Positions 4,824 to 54,980 of a DNA stretch of 64,000 bases are shown piece after piece (position 1 is the stretch's first letter; the number at the start of each line of letters is the position of its first letter). The position numbers were made by a program, and so were the translations under genes. The notes below the pieces were generated by a model. It was not told the origin of the DNA and did no database searches. It worked only from the letters and a program-made list of their open reading frames with translations. The stretch lies in the NCBI RefSeq assembly GCF_018069705.1, contig NZ_CP072943.1, positions 1,043,260 to 1,107,259 of the forward strand, read 5' to 3'. The DNA comes from Aminithiophilus ramosus (GTDB lineage Bacteria > Synergistota > Synergistia > Synergistales > Aminithiophilaceae).

Positions 4824-4898
<75 letters not shown>

Positions 4899-4927: not shown

Positions 4928-4966
4928 GCCACAAACCCCGATGAATACGGGGTTTGTGGCTTTTTA
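4928..4966 (+). terminator. Prophage-borne terminator after tRNA-Val
   Basis: A 13-bp perfect stem (4928-4940 with 4948-4960) with a 7-nt loop is followed by TTTTT. It lies 30 nt downstream of the tRNA and replaces the native tRNA terminator, which is now at 54981-55014. Confidence 0.88.
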
Positions 4967-5073
4967 TATGGTCGAGCCACGTTGCATCAAACCGCATCAA
5001 GCCGGACCGATCCCGTATAATGGACCGTATAGCGACGGGCATCGTTATACGGACTGCCCGAGGAGGTGGCACG

Positions 5074-6222
5074 GTGGCCTTGACGGAGTTGATGGCGAAG
5101 CAGGCCAAACCCAAAGAAAAAACCTACTCTCTTTCGGATGGGAAGGGGCTCATTCTCGAGGTGCGCCCGAGCGGGAGAAAATACTGGATCGTTCGGTACT
5201 GGGTGGGAGGCAAGGAGAAAAGGAAATCTCTGGGACCCTACCCTGGCGTGTCCCTCCGGGCCGCCAGAGAAGCCAACTTCGAGCTGAGGAAGGACATCGC
5301 GGCCGGTGAGCTGCCGAACAGGACGGGCGAGCTTTTCAACGATGTCGTCGAAGAGTGGTTGGAGAAACGGGCAAAACCGAAGTTCTCCGACAGCTACCTT
5401 CGAACGGTCCTGATCCGATTGAATCGATACGTCCTGCCGGAGTTCGGGCACAGAAATCTCGGCGACATCACATCCGGGACGATCCTCGCCTTGTGTCGCC
5501 GCATCGAGGAACAGGGGCTGACTGACACGGCCCACCGCATCAAGCAACTCATGGGGCAGATCTTCCGCTACGGCATCGCCACCGATCGAATCGACACGGA
5601 CCCAACGTCCGCCCTCAGTGGAGCCCTGCAGCCTCACAAGAAGCGACATTATGCCACTATCGTCGACGCAAAGAGCGTCGGCGAGCTCATGCGGAATATC
5701 GAGGCCTATCCCCAGTTGCTTACGCGACTGGCCTTGCGGTTCTCTGCCCTCGTTTTCTGCCGGCCAGGGGAAATCCGTCAGGCCGAGTGGACAGAGATCG
5801 ACTGGCAGTCGGCAGAGTGGCGCATCCCAGCTGAGAAGATGAAAATGGACCGCCCCCACATCGTCCCCCTGGCGGAACAGGCCGTGGCGACCCTGAGGGA
5901 CGTCCACAGACACACCGCCAGCGGGAAGTGGGTTTTCCCCTCCGCTCGGCGCGACGGACGCCCCATGAGCGAGAATACCATTCGCGTCGCCCTTCGAACG
6001 ATGGGCTACGCGAATGATGACATGACTGCCCACGGGTTCCGCGGCATGGCCAGCACTCTTTTGAACGAGAACGGCTGGCCCGTCGACGTTATCGAACGCC
6101 AACTCGCCCATGTCGACAAGAATACCGTCCGCGCCGCCTATAACCATGCGGAGTACCTGCCTCAGCGCCGGGACATGATGCAGTGGTGGGCCGACTGGCT
6201 GGCCAGACAGACAAAGGAGTAG
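5074..6222 (+). CDS. int: P4-type tyrosine integrase (DUF4102 N-terminus)
   Basis: This site-specific recombinase of 382 residues catalyses integration and excision at tRNA-Val. The N-terminus has the arm-binding DUF4102 pattern KTYSLSDGKGLILEVRPSG and YWIVRYW. The catalytic domain shows Arg in RPGEIR (about residue 230), HGFR (about 320), the later His in LAHV and the Tyr in AAYNHAEY (about 355). GTG 5074 has AGGAGG 7 nt upstream. An in-frame ATG at 4954 lies inside the terminator and is rejected. A TATAAT at 5016-5021 may be its -10. The gene ends at a strong hairpin. Confidence 0.95.
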   Translation: MALTELMAKQAKPKEKTYSLSDGKGLILEVRPSGRKYWIVRYWVGGKEKRKSLGPYPGVSLRAAREANFELRKDIAAGELPNRTGELFNDVVEEWLEKRAKPKFSDSYLRTVLIRLNRYVLPEFGHRNLGDITSGTILALCRRIEEQGLTDTAHRIKQLMGQIFRYGIATDRIDTDPTSALSGALQPHKKRHYATIVDAKSVGELMRNIEAYPQLLTRLALRFSALVFCRPGEIRQAEWTEIDWQSAEWRIPAEKMKMDRPHIVPLAEQAVATLRDVHRHTASGKWVFPSARRDGRPMSENTIRVALRTMGYANDDMTAHGFRGMASTLLNENGWPVDVIERQLAHVDKNTVRAAYNHAEYLPQRRDMMQWWADWLARQTKE

Positions 6223-38266: not shown

Positions 38267-38462
38267 CGCCGGCGCCTCCCTGTGGTAAAATAGTGCGGGA
38301 GCGGCAACTCCCGCCTGAGCTTTGCCCATGCCCGCCGTCCTGGCGGGCCTTCTTTTTCAAATCGCACCGTTGCGGGATGGAAACAACCTCCCGAAACCTA
38401 CTGATCCATCGCGGCCCCCGAGGGCGCTCGTCGAGGAGCGCCTGCATCTTTCGGATGTTCAT
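38259..38462 (-). CDS. Small hybrid ORF read through repeat R1
   Basis: The frame starts MNIRKMQALLDERPRGPRWIS at ATG 38462 (ATGA overlap with the upstream gene). It then reads through R1, which encodes VSIPQRCDL, and ends at 38259 in the next gene's start region. The C-terminal half therefore looks like a junction product rather than an original gene end. Confidence 0.45.
   Translation of the reverse strand: MNIRKMQALLDERPRGPRWISRFREVVSIPQRCDLKKKARQDGGHGQSSGGSCRSRTILPQGGAGDE
38295..38314 (-). promoter_or_regulatory. Leader hairpin motif, copy 2
   Basis: GCGGGAG-CGGCAA-CTCCCGC forms a 7-bp stem upstream of ATG 38266, mirroring copy 1 at 38067-38084. It could be an operator or an RNA structure. 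Confidence 0.5.
38330..38357 (+). terminator. Intrinsic terminator ending in repeat R1
   Basis: GCCCGCC-GTCCT-GGCGGGC followed by CTTCTTTTT on the plus strand runs directly into R1. No plus-strand gene precedes it, so a short plus-strand RNA would be the transcript it ends. Confidence 0.65.
38356..38384 (+). repeat. CRISPR-repeat-like element R1
   Basis: 29 nt, TTCAAATCGCACCGTTG...GATGGAAAC. It differs from the consensus only in GATGG for GATTG. The 3' GAAAC end and internal ATCG-ACC-GGGATTG layout match type I/III CRISPR repeats. It follows a terminator T tract. Confidence 0.8.
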
Positions 38463-38746
38463 GCCCTCAACTTCATCCCCTTTCCCTTGAATGCCCATAG
38501 GGCTATATGCCCCCCATTCCAGAGTTCGTTGCACCCCTCCAGCCACTCAAGCGCCGCTTCGGTGTCGAGGAATCCAATGACATCCTCGACCTCCGCCGAG
38601 GGATCACGGAGGACCACCGCCACCAGCGGCCAGTCCTCCGGCTCCGGCACCGGCTCCAGCCGGGCCAGAAGGCGCTGAAAAAACGACGGCCGCCGGTACG
38701 GCCCGCGCACGGCGCCGGTTTCGATCAATCGTTCAATCCGCACCAT
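38459..38746 (-). CDS. Hypothetical protein between R1 and R2, 95 aa
   Basis: The frame starts MVRIERLIETGAVRGPYRRPSFFQ at ATG 38746, 12 nt from R2, and its GAGGAGG ribosome site abuts the repeat. It is acidic in the middle (EPEDWPLVAVVLRDPSAEVEDVIG) with no recognised family. It overlaps the next gene by ATGA. Confidence 0.6.
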   Translation of the reverse strand: MVRIERLIETGAVRGPYRRPSFFQRLLARLEPVPEPEDWPLVAVVLRDPSAEVEDVIGFLDTEAALEWLEGCNELWNGGHIALWAFKGKGMKLRA

Positions 38747-38756
38747 TGCCGCCCTC

Positions 38757-38785
38757 CTCAAATCGCACCGTTGCGGGATTGAAAC
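38757..38785 (+). repeat. CRISPR-repeat-like element R2
   Basis: Consensus copy with C in place of the first T. On the minus strand it supplies the last codons and TGA stop of the HTH gene to its right (FQSRNGAI), and its other edge abuts the ribosome site of the gene to its left. Confidence 0.85.
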
Positions 38786-39048
38786 AACCAACGGTACTTT
38801 TTCACCTTCTCGTTGGGGTCAAGGACCTCGAACGGGCAAGGGGTCTCTTTCATTCGTCGCCCCAGCGTCGACCGACTGATCCCGTACTTTTCGCAGAACA
38901 CCCTTGCCGGGAGCCATGGATTCTCTTCGCCCGACAGCATCTGGTTCCGGGCAATCATGTCCAGCAGCCGGTCCACTTTCGCGTTCAGCTCGGCGATTTG
39001 CCTGGGCGTCGTCTCATCGACGACGAAAACGGTCTGCCCTGGCGTCAT
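38758..39048 (-). CDS. HTH protein ending inside R2
   Basis: This 96-residue protein has an N-terminal helix (RQIAELNAKVDRLLDMIARNQ) and an HTH-like core (VFCEKYGISRSTLGRRMKE). The final residues QSRNGAI and the stop codon are encoded by R2. It overlaps the ribbon-helix-helix gene upstream by 35 nt. It is probably a regulator, target unknown. Confidence 0.65.
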   Translation of the reverse strand: MTPGQTVFVVDETTPRQIAELNAKVDRLLDMIARNQMLSGEENPWLPARVFCEKYGISRSTLGRRMKETPCPFEVLDPNEKVKKYRWLFQSRNGAI

Positions 39049-39253
39049 TGCGTCTACCTCCTTGATCGTTGAAATTGAAGGTCTGCAGATCCTTCACACC
39101 TTCCGCCCTTTCCATGGCCTCTCTGATCAGCCGCCTCAGCAGACATCCGCAACTCAAGCCTCGCCTCGATGCCTCTGAGGCGAGCCAGTCATACTCGCCC
39201 TCGGTCAGCCGCACCGAAAAAGCACGACTGAGCCTCGATGCAGTTCTACCCAT
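39014..39253 (-). CDS. Ribbon-helix-helix regulator
   Basis: This 79-residue protein has the pattern AFSVRLTEGEYDWLASEASRRGL followed by CGCLLRRLIREAMERAEG, a CopG/Arc-type ribbon-helix-helix fold. ATG 39253 has GAGGCGG upstream. It is divergent from the small gene at 39323, with a 69-nt shared control region containing TTGTGATACATTGGGGGACAA. Confidence 0.65.
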   Translation of the reverse strand: MGRTASRLSRAFSVRLTEGEYDWLASEASRRGLSCGCLLRRLIREAMERAEGVKDLQTFNFNDQGGRRNDARADRFRRR

Positions 39254-39322
39254 CCGCCTCACCGCCTGGATTTCGCCATACTGTTGTGATACATTGGGGG
39301 ACAATTAAAGGGGGGATCGAAA

Positions 39323-39517
39323 ATGAGATCTCCAAATATCGCCACCACATTCACGTTCAAAAATTCGAGCTTCGTCTTTGAAGTCTACGCCTTCAGGAAA
39401 GTCACTCAAAAAGAAGGTCTCTTGGCCCTTTCTCAATGGATGAAGCAGTACAAGCACAAGACGATTCCTCGTCGCGGAAAGGGTAAAGCGATAACCATAT
39501 TTGGCTTTGATGAATAA
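39323..39517 (+). CDS. Small phage protein, 64 aa
   Basis: Start ATG 39323 has AGGGGGG 7 nt upstream. The sequence includes FTFKNSSFVFEVYAFRKVTQKEGLLAL and a basic C-terminus. No family recognised. It overlaps a minus-strand frame (39402-39668) by 116 nt, and both have good ribosome sites. Confidence 0.55.
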   Translation: MRSPNIATTFTFKNSSFVFEVYAFRKVTQKEGLLALSQWMKQYKHKTIPRRGKGKAITIFGFDE

Positions 39518-39668
39518 GCAGCTCCGCCAGCAACAAAGCTTCTCCGGGATTAATGAACGTGATCGATTTTCGACCGAAGAGACCCATCGTTACGATTCCG
39601 GTCTCTTCGTCCTGAAACAGATCGAAGCGCAAGTGCTTCGAAGGACTTTCTTCGGGTACTTCTGACAT
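39402..39668 (-). CDS. Small phage protein, 88 aa, antiparallel overlap
   Basis: Start ATG 39668 lies 17 nt from R3 and has GGGAGGTG upstream. The sequence HLRFDLFQDEETGIVTMGLFGRKSITFINPGEALLLAELLIH looks like a folded beta-alpha protein. The last 116 nt overlap the plus-strand gene, so one of the two may be shorter or non-coding. Confidence 0.5.
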   Translation of the reverse strand: MSEVPEESPSKHLRFDLFQDEETGIVTMGLFGRKSITFINPGEALLLAELLIHQSQIWLSLYPFRDEESSCACTASSIEKGPRDLLFE

Positions 39669-39684
39669 TCATTCACCTCCCATA

Positions 39685-39713
39685 TTCGAATCGAACCGTT
39701 GCGGGATTGAAAC
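39685..39713 (+). repeat. CRISPR-repeat-like element R3
   Basis: 29 nt with G and A in the 5' half (TTCGAATCGAACCG...GGGATTGAAAC). It lies just upstream of the 88-aa gene and just beyond the 3' end of the XRE gene to its right. Confidence 0.8.
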
Positions 39714-39752
39714 TTGAAACTTATTGAAAACGATTGTCAAGGTGCCCTTCCC

Positions 39753-40174
39753 TCAGCTCAGAGCCTCGTCCAGTACGTGTCTCAGCCGCTGGCAGTGCTC
39801 CCGCCTGAGTGGGTCGTCGATCCGGCCGTTGTCCGTCAAGTCGAAAACCGTCTCCAGATCGACCAGAACCGGCGTACTCGCGTCGAGGGCCTCCCGGAAC
39901 CGCCGGGCCTCCTCGACGTGCGGGTTCAGTTGCCCCCCGGCCCCCGATCGGCCGGGGGGGTCGTAGGGTTTCCGTAGATCAGCAAATAAAGCTCCCCGTT
40001 TGGAAGCCCAAGCGCGGCCTCAAGAGCCGCGAGATTCTTGGCGTCTGTCGGGGAATATTTCTCATTTTCCCAATCACAAACCGTTGTTCGGGTACACCCG
40101 ATTTTTTGAGCCAACTCACCTTGGGTCATGCCGATGTCGCGCCTCGCCTTTCTTATTACGTCTCCGCACCCCAT
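39753..40174 (-). CDS. Module A: XRE repressor with C-terminal domain in -1 frame
   Basis: Residues 1-82 carry an XRE HTH (MTQGELAQKIGCTRTTVCDWENEKYSPTDAKNLAALE) and the linker NPTTPPADRGPGGN, then a stop at 39926. The -1 frame continues QLNPHVEEARRFREALDAS and ends HVLDEALS at 39753. The junction is G_GGG_GGC. A related copy at 44815-45215 keeps the same frame relation. It is either programmed frameshifting or a one-base error in a G tract. It is divergent from the XRE gene at 40324. Confidence 0.7.
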
Positions 40175-40230
40175 CCCCTCACCTCCTTTTATTCTGGTCT
40201 ACTTGGATTTTATGGCCAACCCCCCACTAA

Positions 40231-40299
40231 AGTCAAGTCAACTTTTACAAGTAGGTTGCGTTGACTTTTCTTGACTATTCTTGTTCCGGAAAGTAGGGT
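40231..40299. promoter_or_regulatory. Module A operators and promoter
   Basis: TTGACT half-sites occur inverted at 40231 and 40236 (AGTCAA) and direct at 40261 and 40271. The last is also a -35 (TTGACT, 17 nt, TAGGGT at 40294-40299) for the rightward gene. AGTCAAC and GTTGACT form a dyad around 40251. Confidence 0.55.
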
Positions 40300-40323
40300 T
40301 TACTTGAAATGGGGGGAAGCGCC

Positions 40324-40779
40324 ATGATCACCGGCGAAGAAATCCGGCGGTTACGCAAGGAGAAGAAATGGACACAGCAGGACTTGGCCAATGAGGTCGG
40401 CGTTGCAAAAACCACCGTTCTGGACTGGGAGAAAAACCGATATTCCCCAGAGGGCAAGAACGTGAACAATTTGGCCCGCGCCCTCAACGTCTCCATCGCC
40501 TACCTCATGGGCGAGACCGACGAGCCCCGGCCCGTCTCCCCTGCCGCCGGGCCACCCCAAAAACCGGCCTCCGGAGACTTCAACCCGACCGGGCTTCAGG
40601 AGAAGCTGCTCGAATTTCTGGCCGCCGTTCACGACAGAGGCAAAACCTCACCTGATTTTCTGGATCTCATCCGCCAGGTGAATGCTCTGAGCGAAGACGA
40701 AAAGCAGCTCCTGCTCCTCTGGCGCTCCCTGTCCCCGGAAAAACAGGAAACGGCGCTGCGCCTGCTGAAGGCCCTGTGA
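40324..40779 (+). CDS. Module A: XRE-family repressor, rightward
   Basis: This 151-residue protein has an XRE HTH in residues about 5-62 (LRKEKKWTQQDLANEVGVAKTTVLDWEKNRYSPEG), a linker AYLMGETDEPRP shared with two other repressors in this region, and a C-terminal helical domain (LQEKLLEFLAAV, LSPEKQETALRLLKAL). It is probably a CI-like lysogeny repressor. The ATG at 40324 has GGGGGG upstream. The stop is 10 nt before R4. Confidence 0.85.
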   Translation: MITGEEIRRLRKEKKWTQQDLANEVGVAKTTVLDWEKNRYSPEGKNVNNLARALNVSIAYLMGETDEPRPVSPAAGPPQKPASGDFNPTGLQEKLLEFLAAVHDRGKTSPDFLDLIRQVNALSEDEKQLLLLWRSLSPEKQETALRLLKAL

Positions 40780-40788
40780 GCCTCAAGA

Positions 40789-40817
40789 TTCAAATCGCAC
40801 CGTTGCGGTGTGGAAAC
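40789..40817 (+). repeat. CRISPR-repeat-like element R4
   Basis: TTCAAATCGCACCGTTGC then GGTGTGGAAAC, differing from the consensus in the last third. It is followed at 9 nt by a promoter and leader RNA. Confidence 0.78.
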
Positions 40818-40825
40818 GCAATCCC

Positions 40826-40853
40826 TTGACATCTTTCCCGAGCCTTGTAGAAT
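40826..40853 (+). promoter_or_regulatory. Promoter downstream of R4
   Basis: TTGACA (40826-40831), 16 nt, TAGAAT (40848-40853). It drives the nested-hairpin leader and the two genes that follow. Confidence 0.7.
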
Positions 40854-40881
40854 TTGATCGTCCCATATCGTTCGTTTACGC

Positions 40882-40931
40882 CCCCAGAGGATGAAGGCAG
40901 CCCCTTCGGCAGTTTGGTTCTCTGGGGTTTT
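40882..40931 (+). ncRNA. Nested-hairpin leader RNA, copy 1
   Basis: The outer stem CCCCAGAGGA (40882-40891) pairs with TTCTCTGGGG (40918-40927). Inside it GAAGG (40893-40897) pairs with CCTTC (40903-40907) around the loop CAGCC. TTTT follows. Copy 2 at 42264-42314 has the same loop with compensating changes in both stems. It acts as an attenuator or terminator in the 5' leader. Confidence 0.7.
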
Positions 40932-40955
40932 CCCTTCACGAAAGGAGGAGACACC

Positions 40956-41162
40956 ATGAGCCCCAGCGATTTCCTCTTCGCGACACCGAGCTTCTTGCGC
41001 GGCATGGCTTCGGTGCTTGACATGGGCGATACCCTTTCCGTCTTCAACACCACGGACACTCTCAACGACGCCGATTCTCGGGCAACGGCTGCCGATTGGC
41101 AGGCTGTCGGCCAGGATATCCGTAAGGCCTTGAAGGAATACCAAGCAACGCATGCCCTCTAA
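40956..41162 (+). CDS. Small conserved protein (SDFLFATPSF type), 68 aa
   Basis: The sequence SDFLFATPSFLRGMASVLDMG with the later DWQAVGQDIRKALKEY matches a small uncharacterised protein type that I have seen next to DUF2335 genes in phages and plasmids. ATG 40956 has AAGGAGGAG upstream, directly after the leader RNA. It overlaps the DUF2335 gene by 11 nt, so the two are coupled. Confidence 0.7.
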   Translation: MSPSDFLFATPSFLRGMASVLDMGDTLSVFNTTDTLNDADSRATAADWQAVGQDIRKALKEYQATHAL

Positions 41163-41562
41163 CCGCTCCCGATCCCTTCTCCAGGCAAAAACCACTCGCA
41201 TCGTACGCACCGAGGCCTATGAAGGGCCTCTTCCGTCGCCCGAAATTCTCGCTCGCTACAATGAAGTATGCCCGGGAGCAGCGGAGAGAATCCTGGTCAT
41301 GGCGGAGAACCAAGCCCGACACCGGCAGGGACTGGAGGCGGAGGTTATCCGTTCGCGAACCAGAGACAGCCGGTGCGGAATTTTCTGTGGCCTTGCCATC
41401 GGCATCAGCAGCATCGTCTGTGGCACAGCTGCCGTGATCTGGGGCCATTCCTGGGCCGGGACCTTTATTGGCACCGGCGGAGTGGCGGGTCTTGTCGGTG
41501 TCTTCATCCACGGAACAAATTCCAGCCGCGCCGAGCGCGAAGCAAAAGCTTCCCAAAACTGA
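41152..41562 (+). CDS. DUF2335-family membrane protein
   Basis: This 136-residue protein has the DUF2335 opening YEGPLPSPEILARYNEVCPGAAERILVMAENQARHR and two membrane helices near the C-terminus (CGIFCGLAIGISSIVCGTAAVIWG and TFIGTGGVAGLVGVFIHG). The family is uncharacterised, with a cytoplasmic N-terminus expected. It forms a two-gene unit with the small gene upstream. Confidence 0.8.
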   Translation: MPSNRSRSLLQAKTTRIVRTEAYEGPLPSPEILARYNEVCPGAAERILVMAENQARHRQGLEAEVIRSRTRDSRCGIFCGLAIGISSIVCGTAAVIWGHSWAGTFIGTGGVAGLVGVFIHGTNSSRAEREAKASQN

Positions 41563-41586
41563 CATCACCGCTTCCACCCCGTCTCT

Positions 41587-41615
41587 TTCAACCCGCATCG
41601 TTTCCGTGTAGAACC
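41587..41615 (+). repeat. Degenerate CRISPR-repeat-like element R4b
   Basis: 22 of 29 positions match R4 (TTCAACCCGCATCGTTTCC...GTAGAACC). It is in the same orientation as the others and again lies at a gene boundary, providing the stop codon for a remnant minus-strand frame. Confidence 0.55.
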
Positions 41616-41668
41616 AGCCTGCGCACCAGCCCCGCCAGTTCCTCCCCCTCCGGTTTGCCCTTGCTCAT
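41588..41668 (-). pseudogene. Remnant of an XRE repressor C-terminus ending in R4b
   Basis: A 26-residue frame (PEGEELAGLVRRLVLHG) resembles the C-terminal end of the XRE protein at 42959-43351 (PEGAELVGLIRNLAE). Its TGA stop lies within R4b. It appears to be the stub of the leftward partner of the next repressor. Confidence 0.5.
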
Positions 41669-41695
41669 CTCGCCACCAAACGGTAGCATTCCCCT

Positions 41696-42148
41696 ATGAG
41701 CAAACAAACGGTCTTCTCTATGCGGTTGAAAGAATTGAGGGAGTTGCGAGGATTTGAACGGCCAGAACTGGCCTCAATTGCCGGTTTCTCTGCTGAAACT
41801 ATTGCGAGATACGAGCGCGGAGAGCGAGAACCCAAGGCAAGCGATATTCAGGCTCTCGCCCGCATCCTCAACACCACTGCAGCCTACCTCATGGGCGAGA
41901 CCGACGACCCCCGGCCGAGAACCCGCGAAGAGAGCTTCGAGATCCAGGCCCCCGTCGAGACGGACATGATCGTCGCAAAGCGATCCCCGATCCAGGCGGC
42001 TCCCGATGAGATCGAGCTCGTAGTCCGCCGAGGCGGACATCGCTACGCCACGACCATCCCCCTCGAGAGCGCCACGGAAGAGACGGTCCGCATCGCCATG
42101 AACTACCTGCGGAGCCTGGCGGAGCGAGACGGCCCCGACGGAGTATGA
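41696..42148 (+). CDS. XRE-family repressor between R4b and R5
   Basis: This 150-residue protein has an HTH (residues about 6-62, LRELRGFERPELASIAGFSAETIARYERGEREPKASD), linker AYLMGETDDPRP and a C-terminal domain FEIQAPVETDMIVAKRSPIQAAPDE then LVVRRGGHRYATTIP. It is intact, while its near-duplicate at 44294-44730 is frameshifted. The stop is 2 nt before R5. No full leftward partner remains. Confidence 0.85.
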   Translation: MSKQTVFSMRLKELRELRGFERPELASIAGFSAETIARYERGEREPKASDIQALARILNTTAAYLMGETDDPRPRTREESFEIQAPVETDMIVAKRSPIQAAPDEIELVVRRGGHRYATTIPLESATEETVRIAMNYLRSLAERDGPDGV

Positions 42149-42149
42149 C

Positions 42150-42178
42150 TTCAACTCGCACCGCCGAGGGATTGAAAC
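42150..42178 (+). repeat. CRISPR-repeat-like element R5
   Basis: 29 nt, TTCAACTCGCACCGCCGAG then GGATTGAAAC. It is identical to R7, and R5 with R7 form a subtype. The duplicated block 41883-42178 ends at its last base. Confidence 0.8.
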
Positions 42179-42189
42179 TATTAAAAATA

Positions 42190-42217
42190 TTGACAGGCAA
42201 TCGTTTTGTGGTACCCT
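42190..42217 (+). promoter_or_regulatory. Promoter downstream of R5
   Basis: TTGACA (42190-42195), 16 nt and a weak TACCCT -10 lie before the second leader RNA. This mirrors the arrangement after R4. Confidence 0.5.
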
Positions 42218-42263
42218 GGATATGCGCACGCGGGCAGGTGTTGGCGTGCGAGATTGGTTTAAT

Positions 42264-42317
42264 CCCCCCGAGGATGGAGGCAGCCCCTCCGGCATCTAGT
42301 CCTTGGGGGGTTTTGTT
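42264..42317 (+). ncRNA. Nested-hairpin leader RNA, copy 2
   Basis: The outer stem CCCCCCGAGGA (42264-42274) pairs with TCCTTGGGGGG (42300-42310). The inner stem GGAGG/CCTCC (42276-42280 with 42286-42290) holds the same CAGCC loop as copy 1. TTTTGTTT follows. Stem bases differ from copy 1 but pairing is kept. Confidence 0.7.
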
Positions 42318-42331
42318 TGGGAGGGATCCGC

Positions 42332-42922
42332 GTGCAGGAGCCGCAGACCAAACGCCTTCACGTCTTCTTCGATTGCCAGAACCTCTTTCATGCCTGCCGA
42401 AAAGCCTGGGACTACGATTGCCCCAACTTCGATCCGCTCAAACTTTCCCGATTCCTCTCCAAAATGCATCCCGATTGGACACTGAAGAAGGTTCACGTTT
42501 ACACGGGCATTCATGATTCGAAGGTCAATCCCAGACTTCACTCGTTTTGGACCAACAAGTTGGCGCTCCTGAACCAATCCCCCCAAGTAGAGATCATCAC
42601 CCGTCCCCTGAGATACACTTCATGCGATGGAATAAAAGTGGCTCGCGAAAAAGGCATTGATGTGCGTATCGCCTTGGACCTCGTTCGCCTGGCTCGTACC
42701 AATGAGTTCGACGTGGCGGCCCTCTTCAGCCAGGACAACGATTTCCGCGAAGTCTCCGACGAAATCCGCGCCATAGCCAGGGAGTTCGACCGCTGGATCA
42801 AGATCGCCTCCGCATTCCCCGGTGTTCCGAATGCGAAAGGGATCGACCGCACGGACTGGATCCCCGTCCCGAAGGAAGACTACGACCGCTGCATCGATCC
42901 GAACGACTACTCCGCGCCATAA
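42332..42922 (+). CDS. NYN/PIN-domain putative RNase
   Basis: This 196-residue protein has the NYN acidic pattern: FFDCQNLFHACR (Asp near residue 14), KGIDVRIALDLVRLA and FSQDNDF. This resembles LabA-type nucleases acting on RNA with a metal ion. GTG 42332 has GGGAGG 6 nt upstream, straight after the leader RNA. A PIN-like nuclease under an attenuator in an immunity region suggests an accessory or exclusion function. Confidence 0.85.
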   Translation: MQEPQTKRLHVFFDCQNLFHACRKAWDYDCPNFDPLKLSRFLSKMHPDWTLKKVHVYTGIHDSKVNPRLHSFWTNKLALLNQSPQVEIITRPLRYTSCDGIKVAREKGIDVRIALDLVRLARTNEFDVAALFSQDNDFREVSDEIRAIAREFDRWIKIASAFPGVPNAKGIDRTDWIPVPKEDYDRCIDPNDYSAP

Positions 42923-42958
42923 ACCGCCATTTCGGTTTTCAAGGTCCGCCTTCCCTGT

Positions 42959-43351
42959 CTACTCCGCCAAATTCCTGATCAGCCCAACCAGCTCCGCGCC
43001 CTCCGGCGTGTCGGGGCTCCCGTCCTGGAGGTCCAGTGCCGCCGTCACCACCCGGTGCGGTTCGGACATGAACCGGCACAGCTTCGGGATCGCCTCCACA
43101 TTCACGCCATGCTTCCGAGACGTGATATCATCGTCTTCGCCATCGTCTTCCCGCAGTTGCCGCTGCGGTTGAAACAAGTCCCGAACGTTGCCGTTCAACA
43201 GCTCAGCGATGGAGATGGCCGTCTCCACGTTGGGTTTCGTTGTGCCCGCCTCGATGTTCTGGTAGTTGCGGACACTGATTCCGATTGCCTGTGCCACCTG
43301 CTCCTGTGTCATCCGGCACGAGTTGCGCGCTTGTACGAGTTCTTTTCTCAT
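42959..43351 (-). CDS. Module B: XRE-family repressor, leftward
   Basis: This 130-residue protein has an HTH (ARNSCRMTQEQVAQAIGISVRNYQNIEAGTTKPN, about residues 8-42), an acidic linker (REDDGEDDD) and a C-terminal domain whose last part (160 nt of DNA) is duplicated perfectly at 43669-43828. It is divergent from 43445, with two operators between. Confidence 0.85.
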   Translation of the reverse strand: MRKELVQARNSCRMTQEQVAQAIGISVRNYQNIEAGTTKPNVETAISIAELLNGNVRDLFQPQRQLREDDGEDDDITSRKHGVNVEAIPKLCRFMSEPHRVVTAALDLQDGSPDTPEGAELVGLIRNLAE

Positions 43352-43374
43352 GGATCACCATCCTCTTGTTGTGG

Positions 43375-43425
43375 CACGCATTATTTAGCGTGTCAAGGGG
43401 ACTCTATCACGTATTATTTAGCGTG
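43375..43425. promoter_or_regulatory. Module B operators O1 and O2
   Basis: CACGCATTATTTAGCGTG (43375-43392) and CACGTATTATTTAGCGTG (43408-43425) are imperfect palindromes 33 bp apart, about three helix turns. On the minus strand each overlaps a TTGACA -35 box for the leftward gene. Confidence 0.75.
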
Positions 43426-43444
43426 TCAAGTGAGGTGCATCTGA

Positions 43445-43654
43445 ATGTTCTCTGAGCGCCTGAAGTCTCTTCGTAAGGCTCGTGGTGTTACTCAAAAAGC
43501 CCTTGCCGCCTCCTTGGGGCTCTCTGAACGCCACTACCAGGGCATTGAGTACGGAGAAACAAAGCCTGGATTCGACAACCTCATCGCCCTCGCGGACTAC
43601 TTCGACGTGTCCCTCGACTACCTGGTTGGGCGATCGGACAACCCCGGGCGATAG
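43445..43654 (+). CDS. Module B: small XRE (Cro-like) regulator, rightward
   Basis: This 69-residue HTH-only protein (LRKARGVTQKALAASLGLSERHYQGIEYGETKPGFDN) with tail DYLVGRSDNPGR looks Cro-like. It is divergent from the module B repressor across two palindromic operators. Confidence 0.82.
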   Translation: MFSERLKSLRKARGVTQKALAASLGLSERHYQGIEYGETKPGFDNLIALADYFDVSLDYLVGRSDNPGR

Positions 43655-43668
43655 CCCTGCCAGATCCT

Positions 43669-43828
43669 TCCGCCTTCCCTGTCTACTCCGCCAAATTCCT
43701 GATCAGCCCAACCAGCTCCGCGCCCTCCGGCGTGTCGGGGCTCCCGTCCTGGAGGTCCAGTGCCGCCGTCACCACCCGGTGCGGTTCGGACATGAACCGG
43801 CACAGCTTCGGGATCGCCTCCACATTCA
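43669..43828 (-). pseudogene. 160-bp duplicate of the module B repressor 3' end
   Basis: This block is identical base for base to 42945-43104. The identity ends within the first four bases of R6, and the remainder of the repressor gene is absent. It is a fragment joined to the repeat. Confidence 0.85.
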
Positions 43829-43853
43829 AATCGCACCGTTGCGGGATTGAAAC
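43825..43853 (+). repeat. CRISPR-repeat-like element R6
   Basis: Consensus copy (TTCAAATCGCACCGTTGC then GGGATTGAAAC). Its left edge is the breakpoint of the 160-bp duplication. On the minus strand it provides the end QSRNGAI and stop of the module C repressor. Confidence 0.85.
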
Positions 43854-44122
43854 TCCGTCTCGACCGTCTCCTTGCCCCCCGGCCCCCGATCGGCCGGGGG
43901 GGGCGTAGGGTTTCCGTCGACAAAAATCATCTTGTAGAGTGCACCTGCCGTAAGCCCCAGCGCCCCTTCCAGACGAGCGAGGTTCTGCCCGTCGGTGGGA
44001 GCATATTTCTCGGATTCCCAGTCATAAATTGCCGACCTGGAGACTCCGACTTTTTCAGCCAACGCAACTTGACTAAGTCCTGTCGCTTGCCTGGCTTCCC
44101 GAATTACTGCTCCGAATCCCAT
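43826..44122 (-). CDS. Module C: XRE-family repressor, leftward, ending inside R6
   Basis: This 98-residue protein has an HTH (ARQATGLSQVALAEKVGVSRSAIYDWESEKYAPTDGQN) and the linker NPTPPPADRGPGG shared with module A. The module A C-terminal domain is replaced by a short tail that reads into R6 and stops there. ATG 44122 has AAGGAGGTG upstream. Confidence 0.78.
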   Translation of the reverse strand: MGFGAVIREARQATGLSQVALAEKVGVSRSAIYDWESEKYAPTDGQNLARLEGALGLTAGALYKMIFVDGNPTPPPADRGPGGKETVETEFQSRNGAI

Positions 44123-44147
44123 TGGAACACCTCCTTGCATAGCAAAC

Positions 44148-44233
44148 TAGTCAATACACTCAGCATGGTAGGATTATTTCCGCGGATTGTCAAGCACACT
44201 AAGCGGAATTGCATAGTTGACTAATGTTGACTA
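44148..44233. promoter_or_regulatory. Module C operators
   Basis: TTGACTA occurs at 44217-44223 (in TAGTTGACTA) and 44227-44233, with the inverse TAGTCAA at 44148-44154. The words are related to, but arranged differently from, those of module A. Confidence 0.5.
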
Positions 44234-44293
44234 TTGCCAAGTGAGACGTAGACTTTACTTGACACGAATGCTGAGGCGGGGGGTAAAAGGCGA

Positions 44294-44730
44294 GTGATTT
44301 CTGGTGGCGAGATAAAAGCTCTTAGAAAAAGTCGAGGGTTGTCACAGCAAGAACTCGCCGACGCGACAGGGGTCTCCAGGTCTGCGGTTTATCTTTGGGA
44401 ATCGGGGACCCACCCGCCGGTGGGGAAAAATCTCCAAGCCCTCGCCCGCGCCCTCAACGTCTCGACCGCCTACCTCATGGGCGAGACCGACGAGCCCCGG
44501 CCGAGAAACCGCGAAGAGAGCTTCGAGATCCAGGCCCCGTCGAGACGGACATGATCGTCGCAAAGCGATCCCCGATCCAGGCGGCTCCCGATGAGATCGA
44601 GCTCGTAGTCCGCCGAGGCGGACATCGCTACGCCACGACCATCCCTCGAGAGCGCCACGGAAGAGACGGTCCGCATCGCCATGAACTACCTGGGAGCCTG
44701 GCGGAGCGAGACGGCCCCGACGGAGTATGA
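44294..44730 (+). pseudogene. Module C: XRE repressor, rightward, frameshifted
   Basis: The GTG start at 44294 gives an HTH (LRKSRGLSQQELADATGVSRSAVYLWESGTHPP). After the linker, 44469-44760 duplicates 41883-42178 with four one-base losses, mostly in C runs, breaking the C-terminal domain after IQAPSRRT. The stop of the original frame would be 2 nt before R7, as at R5. Confidence 0.75.
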
Positions 44731-44731
44731 C

Positions 44732-44760
44732 TTCAACTCGCACCGCCGAGGGATTGAAAC
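44732..44760 (+). repeat. CRISPR-repeat-like element R7
   Basis: Identical to R5 over 29 nt. The sequences diverge immediately after the last C (T at R5, C at R7). Confidence 0.8.
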
Positions 44761-44814
44761 CTCTTCCCTTGTGGTTTGCCTTTCGATTGTCAAGGTGCCC
44801 TTCCCTCAGCTCCC

Positions 44815-45215
44815 TCAGCTCAGAGCCTCGTCCAGTACGTTTCTCAGCCTCTGGCAGTGCTCCCGCCTTGCCGGGTCGTCCGATGCGGCCGTTGTTGGCC
44901 AGGTCGAAAACGGTGTCGAGTGCCGCGAGAATCGGCCCGCTTTCGTCGAGGGCTTCCCGGAACCGCCGGGCCTCCTCGACGTGCGGATTGTTCAGTTGCC
45001 CCCGGCCCCCGATCGGCGGGGGGTCGTAGGGTTTCCGTCAAGAATCTCCTCTACAGAAACGGACAGGATTTCCGCGAGTCTTTTAACGTCGGACGCTCTG
45101 GGCTCCCGAAGCCCTGCCTCATACCTGGCGATGGTCCGAGAGGAAAGACACTCAGTCTAGCCAATTCTCCCTGGCTTAATTCGGCTGCTTCTCTAAACGC
45201 TCTGAGTCGCTCCAT
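44815..45215 (-). pseudogene. Module D: XRE repressor, leftward, frameshifted
   Basis: ATG 45215 begins MERLRAFREAAELSQGELARL. The rest of the HTH (SRTIARYEAGLREPRASDVKRLAEIL) is in another frame. The linker GNPTTP, the G tract and the C-terminal domain (QLNNPHVEEARRFREALDES) match module A, with a further shift near GRIG. At least two indels separate it from an intact gene. Confidence 0.7.
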
Positions 45216-45233
45216 GCTCATCACCTCCCCTCC

Positions 45234-45367
45234 AGACCAACTGGTCTTGGATGTCATCATAGAAGACCGAAAGGTCTTTGTCAATGGGTTTTGCCCCAAC
45301 AAAAGACCAAACAGTCTTTCGCAATAAGACCGATTTGGACATTGCCACCCGGCAGACCAATCGGTAC
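45234..45367. promoter_or_regulatory. Module D operators, five AGACC-N4-GGTCT sites
   Basis: Sites start at 45234 and 45264 (both perfect), and 45304, 45327 and 45354 (imperfect right halves AGTCT, TGGAC and GGTAC). They fill the interval between the two divergent XRE frames. Confidence 0.75.
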
Positions 45368-45376
45368 CATTTAGAT

Positions 45377-46121: not shown

Positions 46122-47033
46122 TTGAGCTCAGCCAACTTCACCATCACCTTCGAAGGCTTCGCCTTGGAGAATCACGAGATGGACATCCGAGCCCTTGCCC
46201 CTGCCTTGTTGGCGGTCAACAACCTTATCGAAGAAGCCAGCGATATTCTAAACGACAAGCATTGCCGAGTAACGGTAAATGTCAAGGCAGGGTTTAAGAC
46301 AGGCTCTTTCGGTGTGGATCTTTCTATCGGCCAGATAGTTACAAATGCGATATCATTTTTAAATTCCGAATCCGTCATTGCAGCTGTAACACTTTGTGGT
46401 TTATTGGGACTTACTGTCAATTGTGGTAAAGGTCTTGTTCCAGTAGTCAAATGGCTTCGCGAGCGCTCTATTCGACTCATCAGAAACAATGGGGATGGAA
46501 CGGCCACCATCACTACCGAAGACGGCGACTCAGAAGTGATTGACGAACGAATCGTCAGACTTCTGGAAGACCTAGAAATCCGACAAGCGCTGGAGAAAGC
46601 CATAAAAGTCCCCCTTGAGGAAGAGGGAATCGAAAGGATCCGCTTTGAAAGCGACAAGGGGGAATCTGCAACCATATCCAAGTCAGAAGCCCCTTATTTC
46701 AGAGCGCCAACTTTCGAGGGCAATGTTTTACTTGACAGCACAAAGGAAATCTACCTAAAACCCCTGTCCATTTCTTTTTTAGAGGGAAATAAATGGAGAT
46801 TTTCTGATGGAGCACAAACCTTCTTTGCCACAATCCGCGACGAAGTTTTTGTTGGCGGAATTCAGCAGGGTGAAATTTCTTTTTCTAAAGGCGATTTACT
46901 AAAGGTCCTGCTCCGAACAATACAACGAGAAGATGTTGCTGGCTTTAAAACCGAGCACGAGGTACTGGAAGTCATTGAACACAAAAAAACAGGTAGACAA
47001 CTTCGCTTCCCCATTGACGACGGAAAATCTTGA
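46122..47033 (+). CDS. Phage protein of unknown function with membrane helix, 303 aa
   Basis: The TTG start at 46122 follows GGGGGG. The N-terminal domain (about 1-70) is soluble. Residues about 84-101 form a hydrophobic helix (SVIAAVTLCGLLGLTV) and the remainder is cytoplasmic-like with acidic patches. I have seen similar proteins in phage immunity regions but know no function. The upstream CCCCAGAGGATG (46070-46081) matches the left arm of the leader RNAs, though the rest of the structure is absent. Confidence 0.65.
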   Translation: MSSANFTITFEGFALENHEMDIRALAPALLAVNNLIEEASDILNDKHCRVTVNVKAGFKTGSFGVDLSIGQIVTNAISFLNSESVIAAVTLCGLLGLTVNCGKGLVPVVKWLRERSIRLIRNNGDGTATITTEDGDSEVIDERIVRLLEDLEIRQALEKAIKVPLEEEGIERIRFESDKGESATISKSEAPYFRAPTFEGNVLLDSTKEIYLKPLSISFLEGNKWRFSDGAQTFFATIRDEVFVGGIQQGEISFSKGDLLKVLLRTIQREDVAGFKTEHEVLEVIEHKKTGRQLRFPIDDGKS

Positions 47034-47047: not shown

Positions 47048-47224
47048 ATGAGAGAAACAGAAAAAAATAACTCCAATAATATTCAGTGCAAGAACGTTGT
47101 GGTCTCCATTGCCGGGAAGGGCACTTCCGTCAAGAGAGTTTGCCTTCCCGAGAAACGTCGGCACACAATGGAGGCAATCATCAACAAACGCAAATCTGCT
47201 CTCGATGTCCTCGCCAAATATTGA
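47048..47224 (+). CDS. Probable antitoxin of the Doc-type pair
   Basis: This 58-residue basic protein (MRETEKNNSNNIQ, then VVVSIAGKGTSVKRVCLPEKRRH) overlaps the Doc gene by 20 nt, the usual antitoxin position. It does not look like canonical Phd. Confidence 0.55.
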   Translation: MRETEKNNSNNIQCKNVVVSIAGKGTSVKRVCLPEKRRHTMEAIINKRKSALDVLAKY

Positions 47225-47597
47225 GTGGCTGACAGAAGACGACATCTGGGAGGCAATCTCGACTCTTCAGGCCAAGTACCGGGAAGACCCCATTTGTGTC
47301 ATCAATCCCGGCCCTATTGAGTATGTCCTTAACTTGGAAAGCCTTTCGTACTTTTACGACGATGATCCCCTTCTCATAGCGGCAACCAAAATCCGAACAA
47401 TCATCAAGGGACATCCGTTGCTTGATGGCAACAAGCGTTTGGGTATGGTTGTCGGAACCTATTTTCTGGACATAAATGGCTTCAATCTGATTGCGTCGGA
47501 CGATAGCTTCGCCAGCATCGCCATCAGCTTGGCCAGCGGAGAAGCGAACATGGAAGATCTTATCGAATGGATCAAGGTCAACTCTTTGGCCAAATAA
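47205..47597 (+). CDS. Doc/Fic-family toxin
   Basis: This 130-residue protein has the Fic core HPLLDGNKRLG (residues 70-80), fitting HxFxDGNKR-type active sites that transfer phosphate or AMP to targets such as EF-Tu. The short length matches Doc. It is probably a plasmid- or prophage-maintenance toxin. ATG 47205 lies within the antitoxin gene end. Confidence 0.85.
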   Translation: MSSPNIEWLTEDDIWEAISTLQAKYREDPICVINPGPIEYVLNLESLSYFYDDDPLLIAATKIRTIIKGHPLLDGNKRLGMVVGTYFLDINGFNLIASDDSFASIAISLASGEANMEDLIEWIKVNSLAK

Positions 47598-47699: not shown

Positions 47700-48440
47700 T
47701 CAGGCGTTCAGTTCTTTGGTGCTGCGCTGAGCGAATCGATAGGATTCCCCCTTGAAGACGAAGATGTGAGCGTGATGGGTCAGGCGGTCCAGGAGCGCCT
47801 CGGTCAGGGTGGCGTCGCCGAAGACTTCAGGCCAGCGGCTGAACTCCAGGTTCGTGGTGATGCAGACGCTCTTCCGTTCGTACCGATCCGCGAAGAATTG
47901 GAAGAGAGGTGCTCCGCCGGACCCAGTCCCAGGTAGCCCAGTTCGTCGACGATCACCAGGTCGTACCGGTCGTAGCTTTTGAGGAGCTTGGGAAGCCGGT
48001 GTTCGTCCTGGGCGAGGAGCAGTTCCTGGGCCAGGGTCAGGGCGGTGGTGAAGCGGACCGAACATCCCGCCGCGACGCAGCACGCCGCGAGGCCGATGGC
48101 GATGTGGGTCTTGCCTGTGCCCGAGCTGCCCAGGAGGACCAGGTTTTCCCCCGTCCGACGAAGCCTCCGTCGGCGAGGGAGAGAAGCTTGTCCTTCGGGA
48201 GGAGGGAAGCCGGAGGAAGTCGTAATCCGAGAGGGACCGGGCGTAGGGGAGTCTGGCCGATTTCAGAAGGTTCCTGAGCCGCTTCTCCCGGCGGGAGGCG
48301 CTTTCAGCCTCCAGGCTCTCGCGGAGGTAGTCCCCGGGGGACATGTCGGCGCCGCCATGCCGGTAATAGCTCAGGACGCCGGGAAGCCTGAGGTCCCGGC
48401 AGAGGCGTTCGACGGCCATGTCCCGGATCTCCGCGTTCAT
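47700..48440 (-). pseudogene. istB: istB helper ATPase of IS21 copy 1, frameshifted
   Basis: It starts MNAEIRDMAVERLCRDLRLP at 48440 but loses frame after LRLPS relative to copy 2, through missing C and G bases in short runs near 48150-48220. The AAA+ part is recoverable only by joining frames. The C-terminus (RKSVCITTNLEFSRWPEVFGD) is in frame again. Confidence 0.85.
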
Positions 48441-49901
48441 CAGGCCACCTCTTCTTCGAGCAGAGCGTCGTAGCGTCCCGGATCGGGGCGGGAAGGGGCA
48501 GTTCCGCGAGGGAGTCCGGAACGGCGACAGTGAGACTGGCCGAAGGCGTTTTGTTGAGAAGCAGCTGGCGAACCGTCTCCGCCGTAACCCTCTTCAGGGC
48601 CAGGGCCTCTTCGAGGGCTTGCGTCAGGGCCTCGTGGGAATGGTCCCGGTGGAGCTGGAGGATGGCACAGAGTTCCCTGTAACCCGAATGGGCGCACAGG
48701 AGCGTCCGGGCCTTCTGCCAGGGCTCCTCCAGATCCCGCACGACCGCCGCATTTCGGACGGCCCCGGGTTTCGCCCGCAGCAGCGGCAGGTAGTGGACAA
48801 GTTCCATGGAGGCCTTACCCTTCCCGGAGAGGCGGCGATGATTCGCCAGAACCTTTCCTCGGCTGGAGACACGGACACGGTCCCAGGTGACGGAGAGGTC
48901 GACGGCCTCTTTCTCGTGCCCTACCGGGACCGAGTAGACGTTGCCCTCGAACCGGACCAGGGAGGTCCGGCTCACCACCGACACGGTGGTGAGGGCACAG
49001 GGATGAGGTATCTCCGGAAGAGGCATAAGCCGTAGGGCTTCTTCTTCGAAAGAGGCTGCGCGCCTCTGCCGTTCCCTCCCGCACCAGTCGGCCAGGACGG
49101 AATTGAGATCGTCCAGTGTCGCCAGGTCCGGCACGGGAACCAGGGCGTTCCTCCGCACATAGCCCACCAGGTTCTCCACGGAACCCTTCTCGTTGCCGCT
49201 TCGGACGTTGCAGAAAGAACTGTCGAAGAGGTAATGGCCCCGGAGGGCCGAAAAGTGCCGGTTCTCTTCCCGGTTCGGCCCCGGGAGGACCTTGGTCACC
49301 GCCGACTTGAGGTTGTCGTAGACGCATTCCCTGGGTACCCCGCCGAAGGACTCGAAGGCACGTCGATGTCCCGCCATGAAGGCCTCCAGCCCGTCGTCGG
49401 GAAAGGCGTACACGAAGGGAGCACCGCTGTGGCGAAGGCGCATGCAGAAAAGGTAAATCCTCCGTTCCTCCCCTCCGATGCGGACCAGAGCCTCGCCCCA
49501 GTCCACCTGGGCCTGCTCGCCCGGATATGCCGTCAGGGGAACGAACCCCTTCTCCGGGGTGATCTCGCTCTTCAGGTCCGACACGACCTTGCGGATGTTG
49601 GACTCGCTCCCACTGAAACCGTGCTCCGCCACCAAACGGTCGTAGACGCGCTTGGCGGTATGGCGCTGTTTCCCGGGGCGTTTCGATCCTCCCGGAGCCA
49701 GGTCCGGATGATCTCCAGGTAGGGACCCGTCACCGGTCTGGGACGGGGAGCTTTCAGCCTGTAAGCGGGGATCTCCGAGTCCCTCAGCATTCTGCGGACC
49801 GTCTTCCGGCATATTCCCGTCTGCCTGGTGATCTTCCTGATGGACCAGCCTTCCCTGAAGTGCTGTTTGCGGATATATTCTTTGTCGACCATCCCGTGCA
49901 T
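48440..49901 (-). pseudogene. istA: istA transposase of IS21 copy 1, frameshifted
   Basis: The N-terminal HTH part (REGWSIRKITRQTGICRKTVRR) and the DDE domain (QVDWGEALVRIGGEE, FVYAFPDDGLEAF) are in different frames because a C5 run is C4 at about 49675. A second C5-to-C4 loss near 48490 alters the last residues. Copy 2 is intact. Confidence 0.88.
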
Positions 49902-50107
49902 CTCCTCTCGTCCTCCCCGCGAAGCGGAATCGCCGTTCCTTTCGCAGGATGATAAGGGAACGGGTACGGGGTGGTCACCTTTTTCAGGATCGATTACCTC
50001 TCGGGTGGGACCCTTTTAGGTTAGCGAAAACACCTCGGGGAGAGAACCTGCTTTATCCTGCTGGTAGCATGTCGCTGATCTACTCCTCCCGAAGATGTCG
50101 AGAAGCA

Positions 50108-50141
50108 CCCCCGACGCAAAGCCCGAAGGGGGTTGTTTTTT
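50108..50141 (+). terminator. Terminator before immA
   Basis: CCCCC (50108-50112) pairs with GGGGG (50128-50132), followed by TTGTTTTTT. Confidence 0.5.
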
Positions 50142-50274
50142 GGACATAACCCGATAAGATTCAGCCCCTCGAAACCTTCTTGCCAACCCGAGGAGAACGT
50201 CATGGATAGTCAGACCATTAACCCCGCCTTCCAGTGTATATTGCTGACTAAAAGACAGTGCTGGAGGCGACGCA

Positions 50275-50772
50275 ATGACAAAAGATCCTCGAAAGCTGGC
50301 TGCCGACCTCGTGGCAAGGCTCGGTTTTCGCCACCCGCCGGTGATGGTCCGCAAGGCATGCAGGGCCTTGCGGATTCCGGTGAAGATTCTCCCCCTCGAC
50401 CGGGACGGCTACTCCGTCGATGTCGGCGGTCACCCCTTCATCTTCCTTTCTTCGCGCCTTTCACGAGAACGCCTTCGTTGGACGGCCGCCCACGAGCTGG
50501 GGCACGTCCTCCTCGGCCATGGGCCCATGATGGCCGCCGATGGAACAGGACCCCTGGAACGTCCGGCTCATGTCTTCGCCGAGGAGCTGCTCATGCCGTC
50601 GGCTTTCATCGATGAAGCGATCGGGCATTTCCGGAGCCGCTGCATGCGTTTCGCCCCGGAGGACCTGGCTCCCCGCTTCGGGGTGTCGCTGGAAGCGATG
50701 AGGATCCGGCTGGAGACAAAAAAGAACGACCAACATCGAAAGGAGACAAAAAATGGACAGCAATCGAGATGA
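50275..50772 (+). CDS. ImmA/IrrE-family metallopeptidase
   Basis: This 165-residue zinc protease has HELGH (residues 73-77) and the downstream Glu in FAEELLMP (about 103-104). The family cleaves XRE-type repressors to trigger prophage induction (ICEBs1 ImmA, phage homologues). This prophage has an XRE array nearby, so one or more of those repressors is the probable substrate. ATG 50275 has GGAGG 7 nt upstream. Confidence 0.92.
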   Translation: MTKDPRKLAADLVARLGFRHPPVMVRKACRALRIPVKILPLDRDGYSVDVGGHPFIFLSSRLSRERLRWTAAHELGHVLLGHGPMMAADGTGPLERPAHVFAEELLMPSAFIDEAIGHFRSRCMRFAPEDLAPRFGVSLEAMRIRLETKKNDQHRKETKNGQQSR

Positions 50773-51361
50773 AGCTCTAATTTGGTGGGAAAAGACAGTT
50801 GAATATCAATTTGTAATTGAAATATTGACCAAAATAAACGAAGGAGCTGCCTTTGCCCCTCTTGACGGGAACCAAGAATCTGCAGGAGACCTTTTGCTCA
50901 ATGCTAATAATAAATTTTTTATAATAGAATTCAAAAAAGACAATAGTGAAGATGCAAAACGAAGAGAAAAAGATAAGTACACTGACTTTCAAGATGCAAT
51001 GGACACTTTAAAACCAGGTAGCAATGGCCACTATGTTGTCTTTGGTGAACTTATTAATAATAAATTGGTATTAAAATATAATAATTACTGGTTATTCTTG
51101 TCTGGAGATGAAAATAAAAATCCAGATAAGGAACTAAATATATTAGATGAAAATTTTCTAAAGACTAGCGACTTATTAGAATTTTATCTTTTGACCTACG
51201 CAGATATGCTTATGAAAAATAAAAGCTCAGGCTCTAGCTCATCAGAAAGCCTAAAAACCGTTGTAATGATTTGTTCGGACGACAAGATCAAGCAAGTTGC
51301 CAATTTAGATGATATTGTAGAAATAATTCGCCAAATAGAACAAGAAGGACCAGTTAGATAG
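50753..51361 (+). CDS. AT-rich PD-(D/E)XK-like nuclease candidate
   Basis: This 202-residue protein contains GDLLLNANNKFFIIEFKKD, with Asp46 and E59-F60-K61 spaced as in PD-(D/E)XK nucleases, plus a Ser-rich linker near residue 160. Base composition is strongly AT-rich against its GC-rich neighbours. It overlaps immA by 20 nt yet has its own AAAGGAG site. It is possibly a defence nuclease. The motif is suggestive only. Confidence 0.6.
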   Translation: MDSNRDEALIWWEKTVEYQFVIEILTKINEGAAFAPLDGNQESAGDLLLNANNKFFIIEFKKDNSEDAKRREKDKYTDFQDAMDTLKPGSNGHYVVFGELINNKLVLKYNNYWLFLSGDENKNPDKELNILDENFLKTSDLLEFYLLTYADMLMKNKSSGSSSSESLKTVVMICSDDKIKQVANLDDIVEIIRQIEQEGPVR

Positions 51362-51391
51362 CTCCAGTTTTAATCCAAAGACATATTCTAA

Positions 51392-52262: not shown

Positions 52263-52349
52263 TATAGTGGACCCCGAAAACTGGACCACGAGCTAAGTTG
52301 CAGTTGAAGTCGGGCTGTATCATAGGGTCCCAGAAAGAGAGGGGACATC

Positions 52350-53480: not shown

Positions 53481-53530
53481 CTTTAACTAACTTCGGGCCT
53501 CAAATGGTCTTGACAATGGGGTCCACCATA

Positions 53531-54768: not shown

Positions 54769-54955
54769 GAAGTCGTTTTAAAATAGGCCACTTTTCCTAG
54801 TGTTGTCAGCAATCATCCGGCCTATTTCTACCTTTCGGCAAACCACGACTTATAGGATATCGACGCTTTTTATCGTATAACAAACCGGATAACAGACATC
54901 GATCCCATAGCTCTAAATGCCCGCCAAAACTAGCTTCATCAGATTAATTTAGTGT

Positions 54956-54970
54956 CTGTGTCGCCCACCA
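54956..54970 (+). repeat. attR core
   Basis: CTGTGTCGCCCACCA is identical to the tRNA-Val 3' end at 4884-4898 and is followed by host sequence. Confidence 0.9.
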
Positions 54971-54980
54971 GTAAATGCAA

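Follow-up and report, generated by a model that had tools for sequence, protein, structure and literature searches.

What does it mean that a long and perfect duplication inside a prophage stops within a CRISPR repeat? The question is raised by a window of 64,000 nt of Aminithiophilus ramosus (NZ_CP072943.1, positions 1,043,260-1,107,259), in which an earlier note had described a 160-bp duplication ending at a repeat element, R6. Coordinates of features in this stretch are window positions throughout, and most of them are collected in Table 1.

A perfect duplication that ends in a CRISPR repeat

Repeat finding followed by exact extension bore out the duplication. The two copies are identical at 160/160 positions, their starts lie 724 bp apart, and the sequence occurs only these two times in the whole 3.1-Mb genome; a perfect repeat of 160 bp rules out chance. 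The earlier note was also right that the copies diverge within the first bases of R6: they part at its sixth base, with five bases (ATTCA) in common. The common end of both copies is CACATTCA, which is followed by CGCC in copy 1 and by AATCG in copy 2. A TTTTCAAGGTCC flank, similar to what lies 3' of related minus-strand genes, is kept by copy 1 but not by copy 2; copy 1 therefore represents the more original context.

R6 itself (ATTCAAATCGCACCGTTGCGGGATTGAAAC), which the earlier note did not recognize as a CRISPR repeat, is identical in all 30 bases to the repeat of a large type III array of the host at 2805210-2822200, 1.7 Mb from the window; this array has 268 repeats (262 of them exact) and spacers mostly of 30-37 nt. 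Upstream of the array lie Cmr (III-B) and Csm (III-A) genes and cas6, and downstream there are cas1 matches. Genome-wide matching found the array repeat nowhere else in the host beyond this array and the copies in the window. Its closest relatives are all from Synergistota, namely the repeats of the same-species genome G041, whose array is also present on record CP074691 (strain L-13), and those of members of the genus whose array repeats differ by three or four bases.

Table 1. Features of the prophage and its repeat region (window positions).
Feature	Position	Strand	Details
attL core, 3' end of tRNA-Val	4884..4898	+	
Tyrosine integrase of prophage	4954..6222	+	phrog_1 9.4e-71; Phage_integrase
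R1 solitary CRISPR repeat	38355..38384	+	2 mismatches; abuts + strand terminator 38330-38348
R2 solitary CRISPR repeat	38756..38785	+	2 mismatches; first bases form part of RBS of minus gene to left
R3 solitary CRISPR repeat	39684..39713	+	2 mismatches; weak Rfam CRISPR-DR2 match
HTH gene of R3-R4 unit	39749..40180	-	matched by sister-strain spacers
HTH_3 / Phage_CI_repr repressor of R3-R4 unit	40309..40779	+	
R4 solitary CRISPR repeat	40788..40817	+	3 mismatches; 8 nt past stop of HTH gene 40309-40779
Decayed eighth copy	41586..41615	+	10 mismatches; 23 nt past DUF2335 gene; score 17.6 vs next best in window 5.8
HTH_31 repressor ending at R5	41696..42148	+	
R5 variant repeat	42149..42178	+	5 mismatches; directly past stop of HTH gene 41696-42148
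NYN-domain nuclease-like gene	42317..42922	+	Pfam NYN 2.5e-12
Copy 1 of duplication	42945..43104	-	C-terminal part of HTH repressor 42959-43351 and 14 bp past stop
HTH_3 repressor, putative donor of duplicated tail	42959..43351	-	Pfam HTH_3 2.9e-13
Divergent HTH-like partner of 42959-43351	43444..43655	+	frame open from 43444, stops just before copy 2
Copy 2 of duplication	43669..43828	-	last 47 codons and stop of repressor 42959-43351 and 14 bp beyond, fused to R6
R6 solitary CRISPR repeat	43824..43853	+	30/30 identical to host type III array repeat; overlaps duplication by ATTCA
HTH_3 repressor, listed frame stops inside R6	43826..44140	-	-1 frame runs on through R6 into copy 2 tail
Frame-broken HTH gene ending at R7	44290..44730	+	tail 95% identical to 41849-42178
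R7 repeat	44731..44760	+	same variant as R5; directly past end of related HTH gene 44290-44730
attR core	54956..54970	+	15/15 identical to attL

Seven solitary repeats and a decayed copy in one prophage

R6 belongs to a series of seven repeats, which together with a decayed eighth copy all lie on the plus strand within 6.4 kb (38355-44760), at spacings of 401, 928, 1104, 798, 563, 1675 and 907 bp with the decayed copy counted. Identity to the array repeat is 100% for R6, 93% for R1, R2 and R3, 90% for R4, 83% for R5 and R7, and 67% for the decayed copy. The features by which solitary repeats are recognized are largely present: no repeat has a second one within 100 bp (the nearest is ~400 bp away), R6 and R1-R4 are at least 90% identical to a known CRISPR repeat while R5, R7 and the decayed copy fall below this value, and their carrier is a mobile element, a prophage, in a host of matching CRISPR type (III-A, III-B, cas6 and the array). 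Viral CRISPR mini-arrays also place host-identical repeats in a viral genome (reviewed in PMC11656645), but here there is no repeat-spacer-repeat spacing, and the absence of spacer-sized gaps (about 30-40 nt) rules out such an array. By genes called by hand, six of the eight repeats contain no coding base, compared with 14% of positions (binomial ~1.5e-4); by the same calls R2 overlaps the 3' end of an open reading frame and R6 lies inside the putative chimeric gene discussed below. Three substitutions in R1, R3 and R4 are those seen in the repeats of sister species, as if the repeats had come from different hosts.

The series sits in a 50-kb prophage inserted in tRNA-Val (tRNA at 4824-4898), whose other genes include those for terminase, portal, head protease, tail and a DnaC-like protein. 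None of the genes scanned was recognized as a phage recombinase suited to 30-bp homologies. The prophage also contains a second, short integrase-like gene (30830-31474; phrog_216 1.5e-54). Its right end is straddled by long inverted repeats (1194, 1119 and 364 bp; 98-100%) that surround IS21-like and other genes at 47700-64000, and near this end are candidate defence genes at 46122-47033, 47097-47597 and 53533-54768 (PDC-S42 1.6e-92, a Fic-domain protein, and DUF2326 / PDC-M68B).

Searches outside this locus found little that resembles it. The same-species genome G041 holds no solitary copies (261 matches against 262 array repeats), and its related HTH island has no repeat. The window holds no solitary repeats of the host's second (I-E) type. 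R-type repeats were not found in IMG/VR, phage or plasmid records, which gave only weak matches in coding sequence of Vibrio phages, and across 84,980 species genomes a degenerate form of the repeat occurred only in the arrays of two Synergistota records, plus one contig-end match. Among related prophages of the phylum, recognized by replication protein, seven stretches from six genomes held no R-like repeat. Similar dispersed repeats in ~115 related viral contigs came down to one unrelated case and some minor ones. That case, the temperate phage contig L141, has a 29-bp sequence three times in the same orientation in its repressor region (at 3990, 4679 and 5776), which by eye is not CRISPR-like. 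Rfam returned only sub-threshold matches. A sub-threshold hammerhead ribozyme match at 39568-39643, 40 nt before R3, has CCGA for CUGA in its core, and is therefore probably non-functional.

Repressor units between the repeats

The repeats separate small self-contained units, several of which are divergent HTH gene pairs, and most repeats lie exactly between units built of such repressor pairs. Promoter-like sites are found between the divergent genes (near 40207, and at 43390-43429, 44165-44254 and 45256-45370). HTH genes on the plus strand end directly before R5 and R7 (0 nt) and 8 nt before R4, and the arrangement at R6 would be similar save for the 160-bp copy. Near-identical short linker blocks recur within the HTH genes (40474-40532 / 41858-41916 / 44444-44502 and 39930-39978 / 43872-43920 / 44995-45043). 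Genes with these common blocks have different N-terminal HTH halves or tails, both in the window and in G041, where one pair of genes combines the same tails with other HTH halves. C-terminal tails and N-terminal HTH halves are exchanged among the repressors of the region. R4 and R5 are each followed on the right (40826-40945 and 42190-42318) by promoter-like sites and by leaders that resemble each other, GAGGATGrAGGCAGCCCCTyCGGC...GGGGTTTT, which have an attenuator-like look and no Rfam match.

The earlier note had placed a recombination breakpoint at the edge of the element. This fits the R6 junction itself, and it fits another block of homology (41849-42178 / 44435-44760), whose end is exactly the last base of R5 and R7. 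Other block ends are away from the repeats, several of them by 17-23 bp or more. Two of ten block ends fall within 5 bp of a repeat edge where 0.44 were expected (p=0.07), and four of ten within 20 bp where 1.34 were expected (p=0.04). Since this coincidence reaches only p about 0.04-0.07, breakpoints at repeat edges are suggested and not proved. No other phage was found in which these units meet in a different arrangement at a repeat.

The junction at R6 and a putative chimeric repressor

Copy 2 had previously been taken for a truncated repressor 3' end welded to the repeat. A repressor tail does join R6, but this is only half of the picture: read on the minus strand, the tail, in the -1 frame of the HTH gene 43826-44140, stays open through R6 (VSIPQRCDL) as far as that gene's linker. 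Copy 2 may thus be the C-terminal segment of the repressor that comes next on the minus strand. The tails of related genes, at 39.7 kb and in G041, are likewise reached only by a -1 shift after GGGGGGC, so that either both assemblies have an error in this run or the genes use a frameshift. Because the tail is open through R6 in a frame that the related genes also need, copy 2 is probably better regarded as encoding a chimeric repressor's C-terminal half, linked through R6 to the HTH half, than as a mere remnant. The reading frame of this chimera is uncertain, owing to frame breaks in C/G runs. On the other side of copy 2, the stretch 43482-43655 of the HTH-like partner gene has no Pfam match. 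The minus-strand HTH genes have in common a GC-rich palindrome with a G run (39938-39975, 43880-43918, 44999-45039 and, in G041, near 10956 of L026); at this run the frame shifts -1 before the tail in two strains, which could reflect a frameshift site or a systematic homopolymer error.

A recombination junction is the simplest reading of R6. We propose, giving it roughly an even chance of being right, that the duplication is a recent recombination scar in a mosaic prophage immunity region whose module boundaries are captured host CRISPR repeats (solitary repeat units). The repeats would have been captured from host arrays, and the lone copies would provide a short common sequence where units recombine, marking and perhaps promoting exchange. 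At R6, recombination would have joined the tail of the repressor 42959-43351 to the repeat, via the five bases that both have in common, beside a different repressor's HTH half, and its product would be a chimeric repressor in which R6 is the linker. This event was probably recent, because neither the 160 bp nor R6 has acquired mutations, while R5, R7 and their flanks have diverged.

Short repeated sequences are familiar from other temperate phages. Mosaic lambdoid phages have short conserved boundary sequences at the module edges where genes are exchanged; the position at module edges is alike, while the boundary sequence here is a CRISPR repeat. The stoperators of mycobacteriophage L5, which are 13-bp repressor sites, have the same dispersed, intergenic, one-orientation layout in a temperate phage, but the elements here are 30-bp CRISPR repeats.

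Spacers of sister strains match the repeat region

Whole spacers were compared with the window, with reversed sequence as the control. Within 38587-45240 there are eight near-full-length matches (29/34 to 34/34) to spacers from two further strains (G041 and G002), and one imperfect match to a spacer of the host's own (26/31). Elsewhere in the window there is one weak match (25/32), and the control gave one match. All nine matches have one sense, which is antisense to the leftward early genes and the same as the orientation of the repeats; six are in or at minus-strand HTH genes, and one comes from a type I-E spacer of G002. Conversely, the equivalent island of G041 (L026 10742-17726) is matched by spacers of the A. 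ramosus genome itself, again in one common sense, which amounts to reciprocal CRISPR memory. Since the spacers of these strains match the region and the host's own match the G041 island, the units circulate among phages of the genus under CRISPR attack, chiefly of type III.

Alternative explanations

Solitary repeat units (SRUs) of this kind have a known function, as RNA anti-CRISPRs, or Racr (Camara-Wilpert et al., 2023, PMC10651486; reviewed in PMC11656645). In one case a Racr and an acr gene share a transcript, with the Racr 11 nt downstream (PMC10651486). It is possible, although we think it rather unlikely, that the repeats are Racr and the duplication incidental. Sense transcripts, chiefly the 3' ends of repressor mRNAs (R4, R5 and R7), would then be bound and cut by host Cas6, and titration of Cas6 or formation of dead type III complexes would protect the phage. 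Solitary prophage repeats that match the host subtype are the published signature of Racr (PMC10651486), and our series resembles SRUs in consisting of isolated host-repeat copies in a prophage, mostly intergenic and with no adjoining cas genes. The short distances of R4, R5 and R7 behind plus-strand genes compare well with the 11 nt of the published case, the host has Cas6 together with III-A and III-B modules, and the region has demonstrable matches to type III spacers. It differs from the published SRUs (PMC10651486) in that seven or eight repeats lie in one 6.4-kb region, at repressor-unit boundaries and in one case at a chimeric gene junction, in a type III host. The term 'type III' is absent from the main text of PMC10651486, and so no type III test is described there. 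Against this reading, the variants keep the repeat hairpin no better than random mutants, R6 having it by identity, R3 has lost it, and one copy is decayed. Sense transcription is doubtful at R1-R3, because R1 follows a plus-strand terminator and all three are among minus-strand genes; R6 is intragenic, and no repeat is directly downstream of a predicted promoter.

We consider it unlikely that copy 2 is the right-hand repressor's own C-terminal segment, with R6 inserted into it and the two tails made alike by ordinary gene conversion. That the tail is open through R6, in the same -1 frame after GGGGGGC as in the genes at 39.7 kb and in G041, would be expected if so, but frame agreement alone has a one in three chance. 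Moreover, the related genes have a different tail (FREALD...), and copy 2 does not have the 3' flank common to copy 1 and these genes.

More doubtful still is a bridge through a CRISPR array, in which phage DNA would have recombined with a matching spacer, crossed one repeat and exited at the following spacer; each lone repeat would then bridge two protospacers. This would account for the exact identity of the repeat, for a common orientation that is the sense of all nine strain spacer matches, for R6 inside a minus-strand HTH gene, in or at which six of nine spacer matches fall, and for the unmatched 17-23 nt that follow R3, R6 and R7 on the right. However, no repeat flank matches a spacer in the right register in the arrays of four genomes, and most repeats lie at gene boundaries and not at random protospacers. 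If it were true, lone prophage repeats would record crossovers through immune memory, shuffling the repressor genes that immunity targets most.

An assembly artefact is very improbable. Frame breaks in C/G runs of several HTH genes do suggest residual long-read errors, but the genome is a single contig, and since the duplication is 160 bp long with both flanks of both copies different, any read of more than 1 kb would resolve it. Least probable is that host Cas1-Cas2, which is known to measure about 30-40 bp, integrated gene-sized fragments at a prophage repeat and duplicated the repeat each time: this would leave units bounded by same-oriented repeats, and cas1 adjoins the array, but the units are 0.4-1.6 kb, no repeat has leader-like sequence beside it, and the left flanks common to R5 and R7 are unexpected from independent integrations.

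Implications

That solitary CRISPR repeats in viruses are candidate RNA anti-CRISPRs is already known. Here several of them border repressor units that can be exchanged, and the sole exact copy lies at a fresh chimeric junction; this suggests that such repeats have a second role or origin, as recombination marks or sites, and this role and that of RNA anti-CRISPR can coexist. The locus is also a natural type III case in a spacer-matched region. Because sister-strain spacers match this region of a type III host, both ideas could be tested in one locus.
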